From assembly GCA_002898255.1 (NCBI GenBank), contig BEIE01000002.1:1-64000 (forward strand): a DNA stretch of 64,000 nt, written 5' to 3'. The stretch comes from a bacterium HR28. Lineage in GTDB: Bacteria > Chloroflexota > Chloroflexia > Thermomicrobiales > Thermomicrobiaceae. The notes beneath the pieces were generated by a model, which was not told where the DNA came from, made no database searches, and saw only the letters and a list, made by a program, of their open reading frames with translations. Positions 36,355-47,690 of the stretch are shown in pieces; position 1 is the first letter of the stretch; each line of letters begins with the position of its first letter. A program made the translations under genes and the position numbers.

Positions 36355-37545
36355 CTACCCGAAGAGGCTGTGCCGGAGAAAGCCGATCGAGCCGCCAACG
36401 ATGAGTAGCCAGACTGGGTTTACTCGGAAGCGGACGAGGGCAAGCCACGCACTGAGCGCGAGTACGGCGGTGAGCAGATCGCCGACTGCGATACGCGCGA
36501 GCTGCCAGAGGACTCCGGCCATCAACGCGACTGCTGCGACGTTCAGCCCATCGAGGAGCGAAGAGAGCCATGGTGAGCGACGGAGCTGAGGCGCGAGTGG
36601 CCGGATGGCTGCGACGAAGACGAATGCCGGCAGGAAGATTGCGACCGTTGCGAGCAGTGCACCTGGCAGACCAGCGACAAGATACCCAACAAAGGTTGCC
36701 GTGGTGAAGACCGGTCCTGGTGTGATCTGCCCAACAGCCATCGCATCCAGGAGCTGGTGATCAGATAGCCAGCCGAGCCGCTCAACGAAGTCGCGTCGGA
36801 GGAAGGCGAAGAGGACGTATCCACTTCCGTACAGCACCGAGCCGATTTTGAGGAAGGTGAAGAACAAGTGTGTGAGGCTAATCGGTACTGCTGTCTCGGG
36901 TGAAGCGACGAAGGGCAGCGTGCCGAATGGCGCCAACCCGAAAAGGGGGAACGTTCTTCGGCGAACTGCTTCCAGCATCAGGCTGATCAGCGCCGCGCCT
37001 GCCAAGAGGAGCAATTCGTGGACACCGGCGAGGTAAAGCACGAATGTGGCGAGACTGAGGACGAAATGGCTGACCTGGCGGACGGCGATGCGGCTTAAGC
37101 TCCAAATGGCCTGTCCGATCACAGCAAGGAGCACGGGCTGCAGACCAGAAAGGAGCCAGGTCGCTTCGGGCAACGCGCCCCACCGTGAATACATCCAGGC
37201 CAAGAGAAGGACGAGTGTCGCCGCTGGTACGATGAAGAATGTGCCGCTAAGGAGGAAACCCGGCCAGCCAGCGCGCCGGTAACCGCAGTGAAGAACCATC
37301 TCCGTCGAGTTTGGACCAGGGATAAGGTTGGTCACACCGAGAAGATCGAGAAACTCCTGCTCGCTCAACCAGCGTCTCCGCACGACGACTTCCTCGCGCA
37401 GCAGAGCGATGTGCGCTGCTGGCCCACCAAAGGCGAGACAACCGAGCTTCAGGCTTACCCGGGCGACCTCTCTGAGCTCGGCTGGCAACAGACGAGTTGC
37501 CCGGCCGCCTGTGGGCGCTTCTTGGTACTGACGGGACCCTCGCAT
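36355..37545 (-). CDS. chrA: Chromate transporter, two-domain ChrA
   Basis: 396 residues with about ten membrane segments in two homologous halves. N-terminal half: LAFGGPAAHIALLREEVV and LLGVTNLIPGPNSTEMVL. C-terminal half: GSGYVLFAFLRRDFVE and MAVGQITPGPVFTTATFVGY. Both halves keep the GGP/PGP signatures, so it is the long-chain form that exports chromate, or sulfate-like anions. It is convergent with hypF, with only 20 bases between them. Start ATG 37545 has only a weak ribosome site. Confidence 0.92.
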   Translation of the reverse strand: MRGSRQYQEAPTGGRATRLLPAELREVARVSLKLGCLAFGGPAAHIALLREEVVVRRRWLSEQEFLDLLGVTNLIPGPNSTEMVLHCGYRRAGWPGFLLSGTFFIVPAATLVLLLAWMYSRWGALPEATWLLSGLQPVLLAVIGQAIWSLSRIAVRQVSHFVLSLATFVLYLAGVHELLLLAGAALISLMLEAVRRRTFPLFGLAPFGTLPFVASPETAVPISLTHLFFTFLKIGSVLYGSGYVLFAFLRRDFVERLGWLSDHQLLDAMAVGQITPGPVFTTATFVGYLVAGLPGALLATVAIFLPAFVFVAAIRPLAPQLRRSPWLSSLLDGLNVAAVALMAGVLWQLARIAVGDLLTAVLALSAWLALVRFRVNPVWLLIVGGSIGFLRHSLFG

Positions 37546-37601
37546 GCTTCACCGATCCTTCACTCCCCACGACGCCCCACTGCTCGGGTGGGTCCGAGGG
37601 T

Positions 37602-37859
37602 ATGCACCGGAAGTCTGGCAGGTGTGAAGGGAGGATAAAAGAGGCGGAACCACGCCCGTGCAAGCGTTGTGCCGCCTCCCTTGAAGTGCCTGCCGGCTAC
37701 TCAGCAAGAGCCAAGCGCGTGCTTCCCCTGTGTCTCAGCTGCGTACTTCGGTATGACAGCTGTCGGGAGCACGATCGGCAGAAGGTGACGCCGCACAACT
37801 CGTGCAGCAGCGAGCGGCACGCCAACACGCCAAGAAGGGTGGCTCAGCCAACTCCGTGA
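37602..37859 (+). CDS. Putative small zinc-ribbon protein
   Basis: 85 residues if ATG 37602 is the start. The core CKRCAAS and, 20 residues on, CLSC give a C-x-x-C...C-x-x-C spacing like a zinc ribbon. Residues 16-45 are encoded by the 90-bp segment repeated at 42043. A GGGAGG lies inside the frame at about 37630 without a usable start behind it, so the real start is uncertain. It could be a genuine short gene or the remnant from which the distal copy derives. Confidence 0.45.
   Translation: MHRKSGRCEGRIKEAEPRPCKRCAASLEVPAGYSARAKRVLPLCLSCVLRYDSCREHDRQKVTPHNSCSSERHANTPRRVAQPTP
37647..37736 (+). repeat. 90-bp direct repeat, copy 1
   Basis: Identical to 42043-42132 except for A37713 versus G42109. 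It encodes the cysteine-containing core of the putative zinc ribbon. The two copies, in the same orientation, enclose 4.3 kb of accessory DNA. Confidence 0.92.
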
Positions 37860-38697
37860 CGAATACTGCAGAGGATGCGAGTGCGATCTCAGGGGTGATC
37901 ATTGCGGGCTGATCGGTAAGTGCTGACTCGCGATCGCTTCTCGCCATGCCACCGCCGCTCCACCGCAGCTGTGGCCAGGCTTGACCTATTTCCTCATTTG
38001 TGCCTTGGATCTACTGCACCATGGGGCACGAGGAGGCGCTCGAGCTGGTGCTGCTCCTGTCCTGCTGGGGACCGAACAGACTCAGGAGATGGGACTCGTG
38101 CGGCGAGCGGTGCTACTGAAGCAGCTGAATTTGGTGCTGACCCAAGAGGTTTCTCGCTGCTGCTCGATCCAAGGACAGTTGGAGCTGGACGGATGTCTCG
38201 CGACTGCGGAATGGGATTTCAGAAGACATGTGACTACTTGAGCACGAATCCGGCTGGTCTCGTGCGTGAGCGAGGGTTGATGGGTGTATTCAACCACTTT
38301 TTCGATACCAACAACCAGAGACGGCGGAGCCTGATTCCTTTGCTTCCGCCTCATTACAGACTGATGCGGGCACAGCTGTACCCAGACAACACCACTCTAC
38401 GCACCCTGGAGGTGAGGCCTTGGCTCCAAGGTGGCTTTCCCCTGCCTCCATCCTGGCCACTAGAGAGCCACCACACATCCCGGCGATGATTGGCAGCTGT
38501 CGTCCGCGCGCCGGAGCATAACTTCGACAAGAGGGTATACTCTCGCTCGAGGCATTCGCGGGATCTTAGCCTAAACTTCATCATATTTGGCAGCTGCCGC
38601 TTCTCGCGCTCCTCTGCTAAGAGTGTGTTCCTGGCACAGGCAGAGCGCCGAGGGGAGCGGCCAGGAAGCCGAGGGAATTGACCAGTGAGGTGTGCCG
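37860..38697. other. Gene-poor stretch upstream of the LuxR-type gene
   Basis: About 840 bases. A plus-strand frame from a TTG at 37981 (86 residues) has no ribosome site and no recognisable motif. A candidate promoter-like TATACT lies near 38538, but the -35 is poor. No gene is supported. Confidence 0.4.
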
Positions 38698-39392
38698 ATG
38701 GAACCACGGCCGGTGCTGCTGATCCACTCGGGCGAACTCGGCTGGGGTGATCTGCGTGCCCTTCTGCGGTCAATCCCAGACCTGATGATCGTCGGTGAGG
38801 CCCGCAACCGGGAACAGGCATTTCAGCTGGCTGCGAGTCATCCCCCAAGATTATTTTCATCAGTGAGACAGTGGAGGGCGCCTGTGCTGCCTCACTCGTC
38901 GCCGCGCTGCAGCGTGGTCCCTGTCCTGACAGCGTGGTCATCGTTCTCGCCCAGCGGGTCGACCCAGACAACCTGCGGAAGTGGGTAAGCCAGCAGGTCA
39001 GCGTCTCTGCCTACCTGCTCTGGAGTGAGCTTAACCAGGAGTTGCTCAAGCGTTGCTTGGCAGTCGCCTTCTCAGGAGACACCCTCGTCATCAGCCGGGC
39101 GGTTGCTGCAGCCGTGATTGCGCTGCTGCAGGGAGAGACACGGCTGGCCGGGCCGGCGCGCCGGCTCACCCCGCGCGAGCGCGTGCTGCTGTCCTGGTTG
39201 GCTCGCTGGGACCTGAGTTACAAGGAGATCGCCACCCAGCTTGGGGTCCAGGAAGGCACGATCAAGGCGCACGTTCGGCACATCGGCGAGAAACTCGGCG
39301 CCAGCGGAGGCCGCGCGGCAGTGGTGGAGGCGGCCCGGACGCTCGGCCTGCTCCCTGCGACCGGACGGGGTAGCACGCAGGGCGGCTGGTGA
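38698..39392 (+). pseudogene. LuxR/NarL-type response regulator with pseudo-receiver, frameshifted
   Basis: ATG 38698 opens a receiver-like domain (PVLLIHSGELGWGDLRALL, then LMIVGEARNREQAFQLAAS) that runs into a C5 tract at about 38849-38853. There the frame must move by one base to continue as KIIFISETVEGACAAS and reach the intact LuxR helix-turn-helix RLTPRERVLLSWLARWDLSY and LGVQEGTIKAHVRHI. The beta-3 position of the receiver reads FISETVEG, without the phosphoacceptor aspartate, so it would be phosphorylation-independent. The shift could be a sequencing error in the C tract or true inactivation. It probably controls the downstream peptide locus. Confidence 0.72.
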
Positions 39393-39789
39393 GGCGGTAG
39401 GCCAGTAGGCTCCCGGCTCGCCTGGCGCAGCGTGGCCCTGAACCAGCCAGGTGCGCTCGCTCGCGCATGAGAGCTTCGCTCACCCCGCGCGGGGTGAGGG
39501 AGCGACTCAGTGTGACGACCATGCCTCTGTCCTGTGCCCGCGACGCTGCCCTCCTGTCGCTGTGCCTGATCAACGACGACCTAGCCACTGCCCGGCGCCT
39601 GCGACGCCACCAGCAGGGCGGACGCTCGGCGCCCGCCGGTGGATGAGTGCACCCTACTCCCAGGGCGTACGCTGGTGGTTGCCCAAAACTCACCCCGAGA
39701 GGGAATAGCCATGTACACCCATCCCTCACTATCCTGAGGTTGAAGATCGGAGACGGCTAAAGCCCTTGGGAATGGGAAGGAGACCGGCA
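39393..39789. other. Intergenic region before the peptide-precursor gene
   Basis: About 400 bases. The only candidate is a 59-codon frame, listed separately at 39467-39646. The promoter of the peptide gene should lie here. Confidence 0.4.
39467..39646 (+). CDS. Possible short protein, unknown
   Basis: 59 codons from ATG 39467. The central part (ARDAALLSLCLINDDLATAR) could form a helix, and the composition is arginine- and alanine-rich. No good ribosome site and no family match in memory. Listed only because of its place between the regulator and the peptide precursor. Confidence 0.2.
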   Translation: MRASLTPRGVRERLSVTTMPLSCARDAALLSLCLINDDLATARRLRRHQQGGRSAPAGG

Positions 39790-40822
39790 ATGGCGGGGCC
39801 ACTCTGGATCCTGGGCTTCGACGGTGACTGCCTCACCTGCCGCCAGCTCGCTGAGGAGGTGGCGCGGCTCGCCGGTGAGCGTCTTGAGGTCCGCAGCCTG
39901 CGCGCGCCGGAGGTGGCGGCCTGGCGCACGCGGGCGCTGGGGCCGGGTGCCCCCTGGACCCCGACGCTGTTGCGGATTGAGGGGGAACGGGTGCAGGCCT
40001 GGACCGGCCGGCGGCTGGCCTGGCAGTTGGCCCGGCTGCTCGGTCCCGGCCGGGCGCTGGCCCTGGCCGAGCGGCTGGCAGCGCTGGGCCGCGCTCCGCG
40101 GTCAAATACCGCTGGGGTGACGCGCCGTGGCTTCCTCGGCAAGCTGGGGGCAGCAGCCTTTGCCTTCGGCCTTCTGGCCAATGGCAAGCTGGCGCTGCCG
40201 GCTGCAGCACGGGGCGGGAGAACGCCCGCTGGCTCTGTCCCCTGGTGGGCGGTGGAGTCTCTCCGGCAGACCCCGATTGAGGGCGCAGCCAAGCAAGCCC
40301 TCTTGGGGCAAGCCCTCGCCGCAGCTGAGACCCAGGCGGTGCTCCAACCTGGGCCTGTCCTCCTCTCGCTGACTGGGACGCAGGCTGCCGAGCATGTGCT
40401 CGCCGATGGGCGGACGCTGCGGGCTCTCGCCCTGGGAGTGGGCAATGACAAGGTGCTGGTTTACTACGAGGACAATAACGGCCAGCGGGCAGCGCTGCGG
40501 TATCGAGTAGTGACGCAGGGCGACAAACCACAGCTCAGGCTCGTCGCTGCGACGGATGAAGCACTGCCGACGCCGGCGGTCAGGCACAGTGAGATCCTCC
40601 TAGCAAACCTGCACCCCGCCCCTCATCCCGTGCTTCGCCTGCTGCCAGTTCGACTGGGGCAGGTTCCTGGATTGCTGTGGTTGGACCTGCTTCTTTGTCT
40701 GTGGTGCAGGCCCATCTTGGCTCTGCGCTGCATGCATCTTGGCTCGATGCCCTTGGTGTATATATACCTCGTGCCCCGGTGGCTGGTCCTGTACTACGTG
40801 TTGCGCCGAGCCAGGAACATGA
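39790..40822 (+). pseudogene. Thioredoxin-Tat-Cys-rich peptide precursor, bacteriocin-like (one frameshift)
   Basis: ATG 39790 follows AAGGAG. Residues 1-100 form a thioredoxin-like domain with DGDCLTC and the cis-proline region APWTPTLLRI. At about 114-145 comes a textbook twin-arginine signal (TRRGFLGKLGAAAFAFGLLA), then about 125 residues of mature propeptide. At the AAA of 40605-40607 one extra base moves the frame. Read one base later, the sequence continues from 40607 to a TGA at 40820-40822 as 71 residues with 16 cysteines (starts TCTPPLIPCFACC, ends WSCTTCCAEPGT). A Tat-exported precursor with a Cys-rich C-terminal peptide recalls halocin C8-like bacteriocins. Uncorrected, the frame runs on as cysteine-poor sequence to 41106. 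Confidence 0.65.
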
Positions 40823-40883: not shown

Positions 40884-41222
40884 ATGCACTGGGCAACCAT
40901 CCATTGGATCCTCTGGCTGGTCATGCTGCTCTGCGTCATCCCGATTCTGGCAACTGGGCTCTTCCTCGGGCGGCGCCCTGACCAGACCGGTCCGGGTCGC
41001 TGGCACTGGCGCCTCATCGGGGGCTTCGGAAGCATTCTCGGTCTCGGTCACCTTCTCTACACGCTACGCACTGGCCCCCAACCGTACATGGATGATCCCT
41101 ACCTGACACTCCTCCAGACAATATTCACCGGCGCCTTTCTCTGGTACTGGATTAAGCTGGGAGTGCGCTATCGAGCCCACCGTGCCAGCAACAACGGGTC
41201 CACCGTCGACATGGCTGGATAA
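40884..41222 (+). CDS. Small membrane protein of the peptide locus
   Basis: 112 residues with three membrane segments (about 8-28, 43-62 and 74-94). ATG 40884 has GGAGG seven bases upstream. It lies 61 bases after the corrected end of the Cys-rich precursor. By position it could be an immunity or export partner of the peptide; no family is recognised. Confidence 0.68.
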   Translation: MHWATIHWILWLVMLLCVIPILATGLFLGRRPDQTGPGRWHWRLIGGFGSILGLGHLLYTLRTGPQPYMDDPYLTLLQTIFTGAFLWYWIKLGVRYRAHRASNNGSTVDMAG

Positions 41223-41448
41223 AGCGACATCTCTTCGAGGTAGGCAGTGAGGACAAGGTGGACGTCGTTTAGCACCATCGGTTGCCGCAAAGAATCCAAT
41301 ATTCGTGATTTTGACAATGTCTCATCCCGGGCGACTACCACTGTACTTTGCTTGGCACGCTCGTGCGTCTGGTGATGCCATTGCTGCCGGCAGGAACCTC
41401 CATGGGGCCATTAGCGAGACGCTCGGCGTCGAGTGAGGAGGAATCAGG

Positions 41449-41943
41449 CTGCAGTGGGACGAGTGGTACCCACTCTTCTCTGCGATCGCCTACTTCGGCG
41501 GCCTTACCCTCCGAATCGTGGTCAGCATCCTCTGGAGCGTCCGGCGCTATCGTCACTTTCGGCCGCTCGATTGGGCCGACGGACTCTTGGTCGCTTGGCT
41601 GTTCGCAGCAGCCCTCTGGCTGGGGATCCACCAGGGATCTGTCTGGGATACCGAGTTCGCGTGGATTCCCATCTGGGTGCGTAGCCTCGTTGCGCTCGTC
41701 TGGGCAGGCGGCTCGGTCGCCGGTGCCTGGTGGGTGGTCAGGCGATCCCGCCGGCCAGCGCGGGCAGAAGACCAGGGGGAGCTGCAACGGACAGGAAGGG
41801 TGCCGTCTTGGGCTTGGCATGCTGGGTCAGGGCGCGGGGACAAGCCTGGGTGCAAAAGCACGCGTCGTCTCCCTGAACCGCGCGAGCCCTGGCTCATGCA
41901 GAGCGAGGAACGTGCGGTTGTTGGAGGACGATTCAAGAGTTGA
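41449..41943 (+). CDS. Holin-sized membrane protein, probable CTG start
   Basis: About 164 residues with three membrane segments (RIVVSILWSV; GLLVAWLFAAALWLG; VRSLVALVWAGGSVAGAWWV) followed by a basic tail. The hydrophobic first segment begins upstream of the first GTG (41518), and the only usable codon between the preceding in-frame stop and that point is CTG 41449, which has GAGGAGGA seven bases upstream. The size and layout resemble holins or small immunity proteins. The tail of about 60 residues is low in motif content. Function unknown. Confidence 0.5.
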   Translation: MQWDEWYPLFSAIAYFGGLTLRIVVSILWSVRRYRHFRPLDWADGLLVAWLFAAALWLGIHQGSVWDTEFAWIPIWVRSLVALVWAGGSVAGAWWVVRRSRRPARAEDQGELQRTGRVPSWAWHAGSGRGDKPGCKSTRRLPEPREPWLMQSEERAVVGGRFKS

Positions 41944-42042: not shown

Positions 42043-42132
42043 GAACCACGCCCGTGCAAGCGTTGTGCCGCCTCCCTTGAAGTGCCTGCCGGCTACTCAG
42101 CAAGAGCCGAGCGCGTGCTTCCCCTGTGTCTC
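42043..42132 (+). repeat. 90-bp direct repeat, copy 2
   Basis: Second copy of 37647-37736 with one substitution. Here the zinc-ribbon frame ends soon after the repeat, so only the CKRCAAS half and a single further cysteine remain. It ends 12 bases before the -35 box of the imuA promoter. Confidence 0.92.
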
Positions 42133-42143
42133 TTGGGCAACTC

Positions 42144-42172
42144 TTGACTGCGAACGAGTGTTCTACTACTAT
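42144..42172 (+). promoter_or_regulatory. SOS promoter of imuA-imuB-dnaE2 with LexA box
   Basis: TTGACT (42144-42149) and TACTAT (42167-42172) are spaced by 17 bases. Inside the spacer, CGAACGAGTGTTCT (42151-42164) is a GAAC-N4-GTTC LexA box of the Gram-positive type. LexA bound here would block polymerase. Transcription should start near 42179, upstream of the chosen imuA start. Confidence 0.82.
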
Positions 42173-42221
42173 GAATCCGAACGAATGTGCGAGATACAGC
42201 AGGGCACGGAAAGGGGGACAC

Positions 42222-43313
42222 GTGCCAGGGGTCGAGGCTACTCCGTTGCGAGCGAACACTCGGGCGGACAGCACCCCGCTTGCACCAGGGACATCGACCA
42301 GTGTGGACGCAGCTGGCACGCTGCCCGCAGTCGATCCTCGCCGCGAGCGGATCGCCTCCCTCCGCCGGCTGCTCGTTGAACGGTTCGGACCGCATGTCCT
42401 ACTTGACTGGACGCAGCCTTCTTCCTCATTCTCGGCGTGCGCTGAGTGTGTCCCCACACAGTGCGCCCTGAATCCGCGTGCTCTGCCGACCGAGCTCCTG
42501 GGGCTCGACCTCGCGCTCGGTGGCGGGATCCCACGCGGGCGACTCACTGAACTTGCTGGCCCACCCTATTCCGGGAAGCGGACACTCGCGAGCTGGCTTG
42601 TGCGGACCACACAGCGAATCGGTGGCTGGGCAGCATATCTCGACGCTGCGCACGGTGCCGACTTCGATCGCCTACATCGCTGGGGTGTCAACCTACGCGA
42701 GTTCCTTATCGCACTACCGCGCTCACTCCCTGAGGCATTGGAACTTGCTCGCCTCCTTCTCCTCGCTGATGCTCTTGATCTTGTTGTGCTTGACCTTCCT
42801 CCGCACTGGGCAACTCGCTCAGAACTTGAGCGTGGACTCCGGCAGCTCCGCCCGCTCCTGCGCGGTCGGTCAACCGCTCTCGTCGTTGTCCGCGACCGGG
42901 AGAGCGGGCCCGGGCTTGCGGCAGCCCAGCTACGCTTGTGGCTTGAGCCACTCGCACAACTCGTTCTGCCGAATCCATTCGGCTCGACCATGCTGCCCAG
43001 TGGGCTCCGCGTCCGCATCCATGTGGAGCGGAGTCACCGTTGGCCGTTGTGCGAGCCGCCTGTCCCGGTCGAGTTCAGCGAGCGCGAGGGAGTCCGTCTT
43101 GCTCTTGAGCGGATCGATCTCGCGCTCGCCGGGGGGATCATTGTCCAGCACCCACTCGGCTTGATCTTCGCTAACACCGTGCTCGGCCGGAGTCGCGAGG
43201 CGGCGGCAGCGCGACTCGCAAGTGATCCTGCGCTCTGGTCACAACTCGAGGAGGAGCTCCGTGCGCGTTGGCTATCTCTGGCTCGACCGCTTACCAAGCG
43301 TCTCACTCGCTGA
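42222..43313 (+). CDS. imuA: ImuA-like RecA-fold protein of the mutagenesis cassette
   Basis: 363 residues. The RecA-like core has LLGLDLALGGGIPRGRLTEL, a P-loop-like AGPPYSGKRTLASWLV and the Walker B-like strand LDLVVLDLPPHW. Partner of ImuB and DnaE2 in SOS-induced translesion synthesis. GTG 42222 with AAGGGGG is preferred; an ATG at 42171 lies inside the promoter, upstream of the likely transcript start. The last 53 bases overlap imuB. Confidence 0.82.
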   Translation: MPGVEATPLRANTRADSTPLAPGTSTSVDAAGTLPAVDPRRERIASLRRLLVERFGPHVLLDWTQPSSSFSACAECVPTQCALNPRALPTELLGLDLALGGGIPRGRLTELAGPPYSGKRTLASWLVRTTQRIGGWAAYLDAAHGADFDRLHRWGVNLREFLIALPRSLPEALELARLLLLADALDLVVLDLPPHWATRSELERGLRQLRPLLRGRSTALVVVRDRESGPGLAAAQLRLWLEPLAQLVLPNPFGSTMLPSGLRVRIHVERSHRWPLCEPPVPVEFSEREGVRLALERIDLALAGGIIVQHPLGLIFANTVLGRSREAAAARLASDPALWSQLEEELRARWLSLARPLTKRLTR

Positions 43314-44490
43314 GGTACTCACTCCACTCACTCCGGCTGTACAGCTGGACGAGGATCGGACCGGTGTTTGGTTCGAGGCGAGTGGTGTCCGGCTCCTCTA
43401 CGGTGACGAGCAGCGTTATGGGCAAGCAGTGCTTGCCGCACTCGCAGCAGCTGGTGGGGCTGGCCGACTTGGCATCGCAGCAACACCGTGGGTCGCTCGC
43501 CTCGCAGCACGGCTCGCGGTGACTGGAGAGGTCACGCTTGTCCCGAACAGCGAGACAAGCACATTTCTGCGTCCGCTTCCACTTGAGTGGCTGCCACTCC
43601 CAAGGCGGGTACTGGCACGACTTCGCGCGCTCGGTGTTTCGACAATTGGCCAGTTCGCTGACTTGCCACCGGGAAGTGTTCAGCGACGCTTCGGCAAGGA
43701 GGCACTCGCGGCATACCGCCTCGCCCATGGTGACGACCCTACCCCGTTCCGGGGACGCGCGCCAGTTGAGCCACTCTGTTTTGAACGGACGCTCGAGCCG
43801 CCAGCTGTAACGAGTGACGCGCTCGCGGTCGCGCTGCACGCATTGGCGGCGCAGGCGATGGAGGCGCTCAATCGGCTCGGTCACGTCGCCTGGCGCCTGC
43901 GGCTCGAACTTGTCGCTGAGGATGGGCGGAGTACGTCGCGTCGTCGACATTGCCCATATCCGCTGCGGACGGCGGAGGAGCTCGCTGCAGTTGCTCGTGC
44001 GCTCGCACTGCGTTGCGCGCTTGCCGGGCCGGTCGCACTTCTCCGACTCGTCATCGACGAGCATGGCACCGTCACAGCGCACCAGCCGGGGTTGCTCCTT
44101 GAAGCCCCGAATCGGCGCCAAGAGCGCGAGCGAATCTTCGAGCTTGCACGGCAATATGTGCCGGGACGTGTCGTCCGGGTCGTTGAGCATTGCCCAGCTG
44201 CCCCGCTCCCCGAGCACCGCTGGCGCCTGGAGGGGATCACAAGCGAGAAAGCACATCCATCGCGCGGCGAGCCAGTGCGGTTGATTCGGCGCGCACAAAG
44301 CTGGTGGCTGGAAGTTGCTGGGCAGCGCCTGCGTGTCATTCGGAGTGGCCCCTGGGAGCGGATCGATCTCTGGTGGCCAGAGAGACAGCATCGCCGGACA
44401 GGATGGGTAGAGCTCGCTGACGGCCAGCGCCTGCTCCTCATGTGGACTGGGCCTGAAGGCCAGTGGCGGCTGGTCGGTCGCCTCGATTGA
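43261..44490 (+). CDS. imuB: ImuB-like Y-family polymerase homologue
   Basis: 409 residues. Recognised by the Y-family fingers/thumb part: GIAATPWVARLAARLA, then LRALGVSTIGQFADLPPGSVQ and the little-finger region up to about 300. The N-terminal catalytic palm is shortened: the protein begins close to the LDEDRTGVWFEASGV strand, and the active-site acidic residues of true polymerases are missing, as expected for ImuB, which acts as an adaptor to the beta clamp. GTG 43261 has GAGGAGG just upstream. Followed by dnaE2 after 14 bases. Confidence 0.85.
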   Translation: MRVGYLWLDRLPSVSLAEVLTPLTPAVQLDEDRTGVWFEASGVRLLYGDEQRYGQAVLAALAAAGGAGRLGIAATPWVARLAARLAVTGEVTLVPNSETSTFLRPLPLEWLPLPRRVLARLRALGVSTIGQFADLPPGSVQRRFGKEALAAYRLAHGDDPTPFRGRAPVEPLCFERTLEPPAVTSDALAVALHALAAQAMEALNRLGHVAWRLRLELVAEDGRSTSRRRHCPYPLRTAEELAAVARALALRCALAGPVALLRLVIDEHGTVTAHQPGLLLEAPNRRQERERIFELARQYVPGRVVRVVEHCPAAPLPEHRWRLEGITSEKAHPSRGEPVRLIRRAQSWWLEVAGQRLRVIRSGPWERIDLWWPERQHRRTGWVELADGQRLLLMWTGPEGQWRLVGRLD

Positions 44491-44504
44491 GGAGAAGAGA
44501 AGCG

Positions 44505-47500
44505 GTGACCGCACTGTACGCCGAACTCCATGTGCACTCCTGCTTCTCACTGCTGGATGCACCTTGCCAACCCGAGCATCTCATCGAGCGGGCTGCCGCG
44601 CTGGGCTATCAGCATCTCGCACTCACCGACCACGATGCGCTGCACGGTGTCGTTCGCTTTGTCCGTGCTGCTGAGCGTGCAGGGATTCATCCCGTTGTCG
44701 GGGCAGAGGTGACCATGGAGGACGGGAGTCATCTCACACTCCTGGCTGAGAATGACCGCGGTTACGCGACGCTGGCGCGCCTCCTCTCGGCGGCTCGCCT
44801 TGGATGGCCGACTCCTGATGGCCCTGAATCGACCGGCACGCAGCTCGCTCTTGAGGGTTCACCTGGACGGCGAGCGGTTGCACTTCCCTGGCAGTGGCTT
44901 GCTGAGTGGCACGACGGGCTCATCATCCTCACTGGCTGCCGAGAAGGGCCGATTGCTCGCGCTCTCGCCCGTGAAGGACGAGCCGCAGCATGGACCTGGG
45001 CTACCCGTCTGGCCCGCCTCTTTGGCCCAGAGCGCTGCTTTGTTGAGCTCGAGGACCACGGTGAGCGTGGCGATCGCCAGCGGGTGAGCGAGCTGGTTAA
45101 TCTGGCCGAAGCCACCGGCCTCTCAGTCGTCGTGACTGGTAATGTCCACTATCTCGATGAGCAGAGCTGGCGTTTGCAAGACGTGCTTGTCTGCATTCGG
45201 GAGGGCATTACCGTCGATACCCCACACCCAGCCCGCAAGACCTCTTCAGCCTATCGACTCGTCGCACCGGCGACGATGGCTCGCCGGTTTCGCCACCTGC
45301 CGGAGGCTCTGGTCAACACGGTGCGCCTCGCTGAGCGCTGCCAGGTCTCGCTCGATTTTCGTCAGGTCCGCTTCCCACCACTCCCCCATTTAGTTCCGCC
45401 TGGTGAAACACCGATGCAGGTCTTACGTCGCCAGGCCTACGAGGGAGCACAACGCCGCTACGGCATGCTCTCCGAGCCGGTCGTGCGGCAGCTTGAACAC
45501 GAACTCGGCGTCATTGAGCGGCTCGGCGTCGCTGAGTTCTTCTTGATCTGCGCCGATCTCGCCAATCGCTTCCGCGGACGCGGGCGCGGCTCAGCAGCTG
45601 ACTCGCTCGTCGCCTACTGCTTGGGGATTACGCAGGTCGATCCGCTTGCCCACCGCCTACTCTTCGAGCGCTTCCTCAACGAAGAGCGCCCCTCAATGCC
45701 GGACATCGATATCGACTTTGGTCTCGAAGACCGCGAGCGAGCCATTGCCTACGTCTATGCCACCTATGGCGTCGAGCATGCTGCCATGGTCTGCAATTAT
45801 GTCACATTCCAGGCCCGTAGCGCGATTCGTGACCTAGGGCGCGTTCTTGCGTTGCCACCAGAGCTTGTCGACGAGCTCGCCAAGAGCCAGGGACGCCTCG
45901 GCGAGCCGCTCGCAGCAGTTGCTCGCACGCTCATGCCGCGTCTGAACGAGGAAGAACAGCGCCGGCTCAAATGGCTCGTGCGTCTGGCTCCAGCGTTGGA
46001 AGACATTCCACGTCATCTCTCTGTCCATGTCGGCGGCATGGTCATCACCGGCCGGCCGGTTGTGGAGCTGACCACCGTCGAGCCCTCGCGAATGCCGGGA
46101 CGGATTGTCCTGGGCTGGGACAAACGGGATATTGAGGAAGCGGGACTGATCAAAACCGATCTGCTCTGCGTGCGTGCCATCTCGGTTGTTCATGAGGCGG
46201 TTGAACTGATTGAGCGGGTGAGCGGCATCCGGATCGATCTGGAACATCTACCGCTCGACGATCCAGCTGTCTACCGGCAGCTGCAGGAGGCGGACACGAT
46301 TGGGACGTATCAGGTCGAGAGTCGCGCACAACAGCAGAGCTTGCCGCGCACACGCCCCGAACGATTCGAGGATCTGATCGCCCAGGTGGCGATCATTCGG
46401 CCCGGCCCGATCCAGGGTGGCATGGTGCATCCCTATATTCGCCGCCGCCAAGGACTTGAGCCGGTCCGGTATCTCCATCCTAAACTCGAGCCAATCCTGC
46501 GCGAGACGCTCGGTGTCATCCTCTACCAGGAGCAAGTCTTGGAAGTTGCCATGGTCATCGCCGGGATGACAGCTGGTCAGGCTGACGCCTTCCGGCGCGC
46601 GATGGGGAGCAAGCGCTCACGTGCAGCGATGGAGGCGTTACGCGGTGACTTCCTCGCTGGAGCCGAACGCAACGGGGTTCCGCGGTCGGTTGCCGAGCGC
46701 ATCTTCGCTCAGATGGCGGCATTTGCCGAGTTCGGCTTTTGTAAGAGCCATGCTGCAGCGCTGGCTCGCACAGCCTACGAAACGCTTTGGCTCCGCGCAC
46801 ATTACCCGGCTGCTCTCCTCTGCGCTCTCTTGAACAACCAGCCGATGGGCTTCTACGCGCCGGAAGTACTCGTCTGGGATGCACTGCGTCGCGGTATTCG
46901 TGTCCTGCCACCAGACGTCGTACAGAGCGAGGTGCGAGCAACGCTTGCCGGTGATCCAGTGTACGGCCCGGTGCGGCTCGGCCTTGCTAGCATCCGTGCC
47001 ATTGGGCGAACCGCAGCGGAACGCATCGTCTCGGAGCGGGCAAGACAGCCGTTCCGGGACCCAGCTGACGTCGTCCGGCGGGCCGCGCTCACTGCGGAGC
47101 AGGTCGAAGCCCTGGTTCTGGTCGGCGCTTTTGCGTCGCTCGCCCCTGGACGAGGCCGTCGCGAGCTCCTGTGGGAACTCCTGCGGGAAGTAGCGGAACG
47201 CACGACACTGCCGCGCTTCATTGAGGCTCCCGAGCCGGCCGTTGCACTGACCGAGCCGGATGCCGTCGAGCAGACGTTGCTGGACTATGCCATCCTCGGC
47301 TTTTGCCTCGATCGTCACCTGATGGAGCTTTATGCACGCCAGCGACAGCTCCTGCGTGTCGTGCCAGCTGCGCGGCTGCGGACGTTGCCACACGGCGCGA
47401 CAGCCCGCGTCGCTGGGCTCGTCGTGTGCCGGCAGGCACCGCCAACGGCGCGCGGTGTCCTTTTCCTGACCCTCGAGGATGAGACTGGACTCGTCAATGT

Positions 47501-47690
47501 GATCGTTCCGCCCCCGGTACGCGAGCAGTACCGAGCGCTCCTGCGCCGCCAACCTGTGCTTGTGATCGACGGGCGAGTTGAGCGCGAGGGATCACTGGCC
47601 AGTCTGGTCGCCGACGAAGTGCGTCCGCTCGGGCGACCAGCGCTCCCGCTCACCGCACGTGCCGGCACTCTGTCGCACGACTTCCGGTGA
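44505..47690 (+). CDS. dnaE2: Error-prone DNA polymerase III alpha subunit DnaE2
   Basis: 1061 residues. N-terminal PHP domain (AELHVHSCFSLLDAP), C-family palm with PDIDIDFGLEDRERAIAYVY, fingers with TYQVESRAQQQ and RRAMGSKRSRAAMEALRGDF, and a C-terminal OB domain (TARVAGLVVCRQAPPTARGV). The length matches DnaE2 rather than replicative DnaE1. GTG 44505 follows GAGGAG and lies 14 bases after imuB. It makes the polymerase of the imuA-imuB-dnaE2 mutasome. The 3' end overlaps the convergent channel gene by about 100 bases. Confidence 0.94.
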   Translation: MTALYAELHVHSCFSLLDAPCQPEHLIERAAALGYQHLALTDHDALHGVVRFVRAAERAGIHPVVGAEVTMEDGSHLTLLAENDRGYATLARLLSAARLGWPTPDGPESTGTQLALEGSPGRRAVALPWQWLAEWHDGLIILTGCREGPIARALAREGRAAAWTWATRLARLFGPERCFVELEDHGERGDRQRVSELVNLAEATGLSVVVTGNVHYLDEQSWRLQDVLVCIREGITVDTPHPARKTSSAYRLVAPATMARRFRHLPEALVNTVRLAERCQVSLDFRQVRFPPLPHLVPPGETPMQVLRRQAYEGAQRRYGMLSEPVVRQLEHELGVIERLGVAEFFLICADLANRFRGRGRGSAADSLVAYCLGITQVDPLAHRLLFERFLNEERPSMPDIDIDFGLEDRERAIAYVYATYGVEHAAMVCNYVTFQARSAIRDLGRVLALPPELVDELAKSQGRLGEPLAAVARTLMPRLNEEEQRRLKWLVRLAPALEDIPRHLSVHVGGMVITGRPVVELTTVEPSRMPGRIVLGWDKRDIEEAGLIKTDLLCVRAISVVHEAVELIERVSGIRIDLEHLPLDDPAVYRQLQEADTIGTYQVESRAQQQSLPRTRPERFEDLIAQVAIIRPGPIQGGMVHPYIRRRQGLEPVRYLHPKLEPILRETLGVILYQEQVLEVAMVIAGMTAGQADAFRRAMGSKRSRAAMEALRGDFLAGAERNGVPRSVAERIFAQMAAFAEFGFCKSHAAALARTAYETLWLRAHYPAALLCALLNNQPMGFYAPEVLVWDALRRGIRVLPPDVVQSEVRATLAGDPVYGPVRLGLASIRAIGRTAAERIVSERARQPFRDPADVVRRAALTAEQVEALVLVGAFASLAPGRGRRELLWELLREVAERTTLPRFIEAPEPAVALTEPDAVEQTLLDYAILGFCLDRHLMELYARQRQLLRVVPAARLRTLPHGATARVAGLVVCRQAPPTARGVLFLTLEDETGLVNVIVPPPVREQYRALLRRQPVLVIDGRVEREGSLASLVADEVRPLGRPALPLTARAGTLSHDFR

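Follow-up and report, generated by a model that had tools for sequence, protein, structure and literature searches.

A probable Tat-exported, cysteine-rich bacteriocin precursor with a thioredoxin-fold leader, most likely recently inactivated in bacterium HR28

The window analysed here, a stretch of 64,000 nucleotides from bacterium HR28 (Chloroflexota, Thermomicrobiaceae; contig BEIE01000002.1), contains a gene in which a thioredoxin-fold domain (henceforth the leader), a twin-arginine (Tat) signal, a propeptide and a cysteine-rich C-terminal peptide follow one another, with the peptide displaced into another reading frame (Table 1). The same order is found intact in relatives, in which the leader is fused to different tails, some of them related to fulvocin C, and in which open reading frames (ORFs) with several transmembrane segments are linked to the precursor genes. 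We consider it probable that this is a polymorphic Tat-exported, disulfide-rich bacteriocin with a separate membrane protein for immunity, and that the copy in the window has recently been broken.

Table 1. Features of the precursor locus (positions are those of the window)
Feature	Position	Strand	Basis or remark
LuxR-type response regulator, frameshifted, upstream of precursor	38692..39392	+	tblastn
N-terminal thioredoxin-fold (DCC1-like) domain with CLTC, about residues 1-104	39790..40101	+	AF2, Foldseek, PF04134 matches of relatives
Internal twin-arginine (Tat) signal, TRRGFLGKLGAAAFAFGLLANGKLALPAAAR	40117..40212	+	Sequence; RR (near-)invariant in 17 relatives; TatC in genome
Variable propeptide	40213..40603	+	3' end holds the frame lesion, about 40595-40610
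Cys-rich C-terminal peptide, 71-72 aa, 16 Cys, +1 frame	40604..40822	+	Stop 40820-40822
Small hydrophobic membrane protein, 112 aa, candidate immunity	40884..41222	+	Homologues after matching tail in G002, G006
Second Cys-rich tail remnant with internal stop: CLARSCVW, stop, CHCCRQEPPWGH, stop	41340..41405	+	Matches L002/L057 orphan tail
Second small membrane protein, orphan immunity candidate	41452..41943	+	CTG at the start codon used by relatives

Read as an ORF, frame 0 starts at the ATG at 39790 (MAGPLWILGFDGDCLTC...) and stays open through 41106 with no recognisable end, its first part (39790-40605) encoding the CxxC thioredoxin-fold domain and then the twin-arginine signal. Past a TAG at 40601-40603, the +1 frame runs for 72 codons with 16 cysteines to a TGA stop (translation QTCTPPLIPCFACCQFDWGRFLDCCGWTCFFVCGAGPSWLCAACILARCPWCIYTSCPGGWSCTTCCAEPGT), and among all 71-residue open stretches in the six frames of the 64 kb this tail has the highest cysteine count (16; the next has 12). 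An initial annotation had proposed that a shift at the AAA triplet at 40605-40607 uncovers a 71-residue tail with 16 cysteines that ends at 40820, and the coordinates are as it gave them. It had also staked this reading on orthologues ending in the cysteine frame and on relatives conserving the cysteine pattern, both of which we find. The whole protein lies in one frame in Thermomicrobium roseum DSM 5159 (megaplasmid NC_011961.1, 677026-678045, annotated 'hypothetical protein') and in L002 of genome G001, which is listed in the same genus as the window; in L006 of genome G002 the propeptide and cysteine-rich tail share one frame and a contig edge cuts inside the leader. As G001 has a uracil phosphoribosyltransferase with 95% identity to that of T. 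roseum, the window very probably belongs to a Thermomicrobium. Across the Tat signal and propeptide, identity to the window is 45% for L006 and 44% for L002, and at the junction the frame of the window lacks two bases compared with L006. The tails of the window and L006 are 77% identical (dN 0.126, dS 1.09, dN/dS about 0.12), and across seven aligned tails 11 columns are invariant, of which ten are Cys and one is Trp. Such conservation indicates that the frame of the tail is truly coding, and we call the window copy frameshifted because relatives in the same genus use a single frame and the dN/dS of the tail is about 0.12. Searched alone, the tail gave no match to Pfam or NCBIfam profiles (for the window tail, no NCBIfam family at E≤10).

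The leader is best described as a thioredoxin fold. An AF2 model built from 17 sequences has a pLDDT of about 84-96 per 10-residue block over residues 1-100 and the element order b-a-b-a-b-b-a-a, so that the b-a-b-a-b-b-a thioredoxin core is present; the top Foldseek matches of the model are PDI and thioredoxin domains with modest TM-scores, and VIA-align gave middling Z-scores of up to 7.4 against GST/SspA-type thioredoxin-fold chains. The DCC1-like family (PF04134, DUF393) matched 11 of 17 relatives at E≤1 (best 4.9e-5, with the scores shown below the gathering cut-off) and did not match the window protein itself. Like these thiol-disulfide oxidoreductases, the leader has thioredoxin topology with a CxxC after the first strand (DGxC in the family; CLTC, residues 14-17, in the window), the first cysteine being invariant and the second at least 90% conserved among 17 relatives; unlike them, it is fused to a Tat signal and a secreted cargo, and a few of its members have lost one or both cysteines. 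Searching PDB sequences with the leader profile returned ParB matches only, which we judged to be chance. Both CLTC and the Tat motif TRRGFLGKLG lie where the initial annotation had placed them. The window signal alone falls under the NCBIfam cut-off of TIGR01409 (8.5 versus 16.7 bits), but in an alignment of 17 relatives the first of the twin arginines does not vary and the second is at least 90% conserved. The window genome encodes TatC (E 5e-60), so that a twin-arginine signal and a Tat system occur together. Tat signals usually adopt an N-in topology, and because the thioredoxin domain precedes the signal, it would be expected to stay in the cytoplasm.

The surroundings of the precursor are damaged at several points. 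The upstream regulator, whose split was seen by tblastn with the intact regulators of T. roseum and G001, consists of a receiver part (38692 to about 38855) and, in another frame, an HTH C-terminal part (about 38880 to 39392); its T. roseum counterpart, annotated 'response regulator transcription factor', stands directly before the precursor. The remnant of a second tail corresponds to the terminal part of the orphan tail that comes second in L002/L057 (CLIRACVWWCDCCWQDPPWGP, then a stop), and the second membrane gene starts with CTG in the window versus ATG in G003. In this sister genome the leader and the regulator are deleted (window 36600-40677 is missing), and of the tail the final 47 residues survive, minus one cysteine, while other relatives carry an in-frame TGA (G006), a shift further upstream (G007) or a deletion (G015). 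Since the adjoining response regulator is frameshifted too, the locus appears to be decaying rather than misassembled, and this, together with the deletion of the leader in G003, argues for a real lesion over a base-calling slip. Because the frameshift adjoins both the frameshifted regulator and the wrecked second tail, the window copy most likely represents a cassette that was inactivated recently and in which the immunity gene persists. The 'corrected' frame of the initial annotation stands insofar as the cysteine frame codes, and the shift is better explained by a lesion than by a slip in the sequence. That the gene is functional after all and the frameshift a sequencing or assembly error is possible but doubtful. 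An ORF of 1 kb that is clean apart from one shift speaks for it, as does a count made by eye over the last 47 tail residues, polarised with L006, of about 1 unambiguous amino-acid change on the window branch versus 4 on that of the dead G003 copy, from which it follows that the window tail was constrained until recently. It has to accommodate, however, the second frameshift in the adjoining regulator, the changed start codon of the second membrane gene, main genes that are long and open elsewhere in the window, and a shift site that is just AAA and no long homopolymer.

Of 400 genomes sampled from the phylum, 13 contain the leader, with a maximum of ten copies per genome. It also occurs in 22 contigs of named assemblies, which comprise Thermoflexus, Roseilinea, Roseiflexus, Herpetosiphonaceae, Anaerolineae and other Chloroflexota MAGs as well as one unclassified bacterial MAG and the actinomycete Rhizohabitans arisaemae; Streptomyces and Rubrobacter plasmids carry it likewise. 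The order of thioredoxin domain, Tat signal, propeptide and cysteine-rich peptide had initially been described as unusual, and so it is; it is not unique to the window genome, recurring in Chloroflexota and actinomycetes before many different cysteine-rich tails. In the literature searched, no paper on such a layout was found. These tails are of several unrelated types with 8-22 cysteines, and orphan tails occur in G001, G002 and G006. Because most tail types seen here matched no curated family model, bacteriocins of thermophiles with up to 22 cysteines appear to have gone unannotated, and the leader offers a handle for finding further precursors of this kind. Since some leader proteins carry cargo without cysteine enrichment (in Thermoflexus and Roseilinea), the leader is not specific to bacteriocins. 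This cargo is conserved across seven of the loci (L026, L028, L030, L040, L042, L045, L046) as WEGFLLLPPGAPLPxWV...PxYPxPYPVWPV..., and in L042 no Pfam or NCBIfam domain was found apart from a weak DCC1-like match. One further leader protein (L024; G265:C1, about 2401669-2402916) is split by an in-frame TAG and has a long tail with more than 20 cysteines (CGTCNLARSDQAAWPAMDTCGCCTWNCCDC...), which by eye resembles the methylamine dehydrogenase small subunit, a resemblance for which no such model matched. In L031 and L039, leader fragments run into a zinc-protease-like frame (VITHEFGHALGL) with its own Sec-type signal, and are probably leader debris beside another gene.

Small membrane proteins adjoin the cysteine-tailed precursors. 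We scored the next ORF after each precursor as positive when it encoded 60-270 aa with at least two hydrophobic segments and started within about 320 nt, a crude test based on Kyte-Doolittle transmembrane counts and ORF lengths only. By this measure a multi-transmembrane ORF came next in 17 of 23 cysteine-tailed precursors versus 0 of 9 leader proteins without cysteine-rich tails, with controls of 1 in 45 after long window ORFs and 4-17% at random positions. Most of the 17 counted ORFs encode small membrane proteins, those of L067 and L036 being ABC-transporter genes. The 112-aa protein of the window falls under the threshold and so went uncounted; it is homologous to one that passes, and the G003 genome, with its leader deleted, keeps a homologue 94% identical to it. 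In T. roseum the precursor is followed by five consecutive small hydrophobic genes, and the protein hp2 (WP_012642418.1) of this species is 49% identical over 105 aa to the second membrane protein of the window. Across genomes the same type of tail pairs with the same type of membrane protein (0.87/0.78 for G001a-G002b, 0.81/0.56 for window-G002a), and adjacent cassettes within one genome differ; over all pairs the tail/membrane correlation is weak (Spearman 0.29, p 0.03, the pairs not being independent), and the gene that immediately follows the precursor in T. roseum is no orthologue of the one beside the matching orphan tail in G001. A role of the thioredoxin domain in immunity, which had been suggested at the outset, gives way to the separate membrane protein encoded just downstream of the tail as the more likely candidate. 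ABC transporter ATPase and/or permease genes follow the cysteine-tailed precursors L067, L063 and L036, possibly with a role in export or immunity.

A likely function of the tails is suggested by the family of fulvocin C-related bacteriocins. Its model, NF033852, matches the tail of L021/G406 (E 8e-31) and those of two precursors on Streptomyces plasmids (L098 and L100, E 3e-29 and 4e-30), and two of the matching records are annotated as fulvocin C-related by NCBI. These three proteins share the thioredoxin-fold leader, which the model itself does not include, and fulvocin C-related proteins resemble the window precursor in having a cysteine-rich C-terminal peptide behind a propeptide. The window tail differs in lying outside the model, with more and differently spaced cysteines, and tails of its type matched no bacteriocin model, NF033852 included; a search of 301 genomes of the phylum with NF033852 gave no match, nor did control genomes, which makes that search uninformative. 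Because fulvocin C-related tails share the leader and small membrane proteins adjoin, a bacteriocin role is likely, and to this extent the bacteriocin reading of the initial annotation is retained. It is unlikely that the tail is instead an exported structural, metal-binding or redox peptide with the small membrane protein as its membrane partner: 16 cysteines in 71 residues would suit metal binding too, and the linked membrane proteins could serve as receptors or anchors, but the diversity of tails goes far beyond a single conserved function, modules are found orphaned and repeatedly lost, and the tail of three relatives belongs to a family named for bacteriocins.

A part of the initial reading that is not retained is the kinship with halocin C8. 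HalC8 is a 76-aa cysteine-rich peptide from the precursor ProC8, which is exported by the Tat system (PMC11509114). The window precursor shares this outline with ProC8 (TIGR04449) and with the Gram-positive C8-like proteins (TIGR04450), since here too a cysteine-rich C-terminal peptide of about 70 residues (70-76 overall) stands behind a Tat signal. It differs in having a thioredoxin-fold domain ahead of that signal, in the lack of any sequence match and, where halocin C8 carries HalI in the same precursor, in an immunity function that apparently resides in a separate candidate membrane protein. Neither model matched the window tail at E≤10, and the best values among relatives, E 0.71 (TIGR04449) and 0.54 (TIGR04450), both fell below the cut-off; as no halocin model matches it, the window peptide is by sequence not a member of the halocin C8 family. 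The common outline notwithstanding, we therefore regard it as improbable that the gene encodes a bacterial halocin C8 relative in which the thioredoxin domain has replaced HalI, all the more as that domain would be cytoplasmic and the separate membrane gene is the likelier source of immunity. Least credible of all, and rejected here, is programmed frameshifting, by which the two frames would be joined and the tail produced under certain conditions only. While the shift lies exactly at the boundary of propeptide and tail, the intact relatives L002, L006 and T. roseum have the tail in one frame, and the lesions of G006, G007 and G015 lie elsewhere and are of other kinds.

A bacteriocin with exchangeable parts would have counterparts in known toxin systems. 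CDI and Rhs polymorphic toxins consist of a conserved N-terminal delivery part and a variable C-terminal effector with adjacent cognate immunity, and orphan modules lie downstream. The family described here follows the same logic, with a conserved leader, exchangeable effectors and candidate immunity adjoining, and differs from CDI and Rhs systems in that its product would be a small disulfide-rich peptide exported by Tat with no large scaffold.

In the proposed mechanism, a single precursor would comprise the cytoplasmic DCC1-like leader, the Tat signal, the propeptide and, at the C-terminus, the disulfide-rich peptide with its roughly 70 residues. Only folded proteins pass the Tat system, and the cargo would be exported already folded and oxidised, after which signal and propeptide would be cut away to release the cysteine-rich peptide. 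Once released, the peptide would kill close relatives, with the membrane as its probable site of action, and the producer would be shielded by the small membrane protein whose gene lies just downstream. Recombination may exchange tail-plus-immunity modules under the conserved leader and so give rise to orphan tails and orphan immunity genes. The layout also poses the question of whether the CxxC domain ahead of the Tat signal oxidises its own cargo before export. We offer as a tentative possibility, less probable than the bacteriocin reading as a whole, that the leader is a built-in cytoplasmic folding catalyst, which would make or shuffle the disulfides of its own cargo before Tat export and then be cut off. 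Against a strict need for the leader CxxC stand the leaders on cargo without cysteine enrichment and the loss of cysteines in a few members (L018/L049, L009). If true, such a cis-folding leader would give disulfide-rich bacteriocins a new maturation route, and would place a catalytic domain ahead of a Tat signal, which is rare.

As a candidate processing protease we considered an S8 serine peptidase encoded near the precursor in T. roseum (L097:1630-3681) and Rubrobacter radiotolerans (L099:525-1922), and rejected it; the linkage is weak because in T. roseum and G001 the S8 gene belongs to a upp-S8-MFS block and the closest homologue in the window genome lies elsewhere on the contig. Downstream of the cassette, at 42126-47690, the window contains what by eye resembles a mutagenesis-type operon encoding a recombinase-like ImuA, an ImuB-like Y-family polymerase and a DnaE-type polymerase III alpha subunit.
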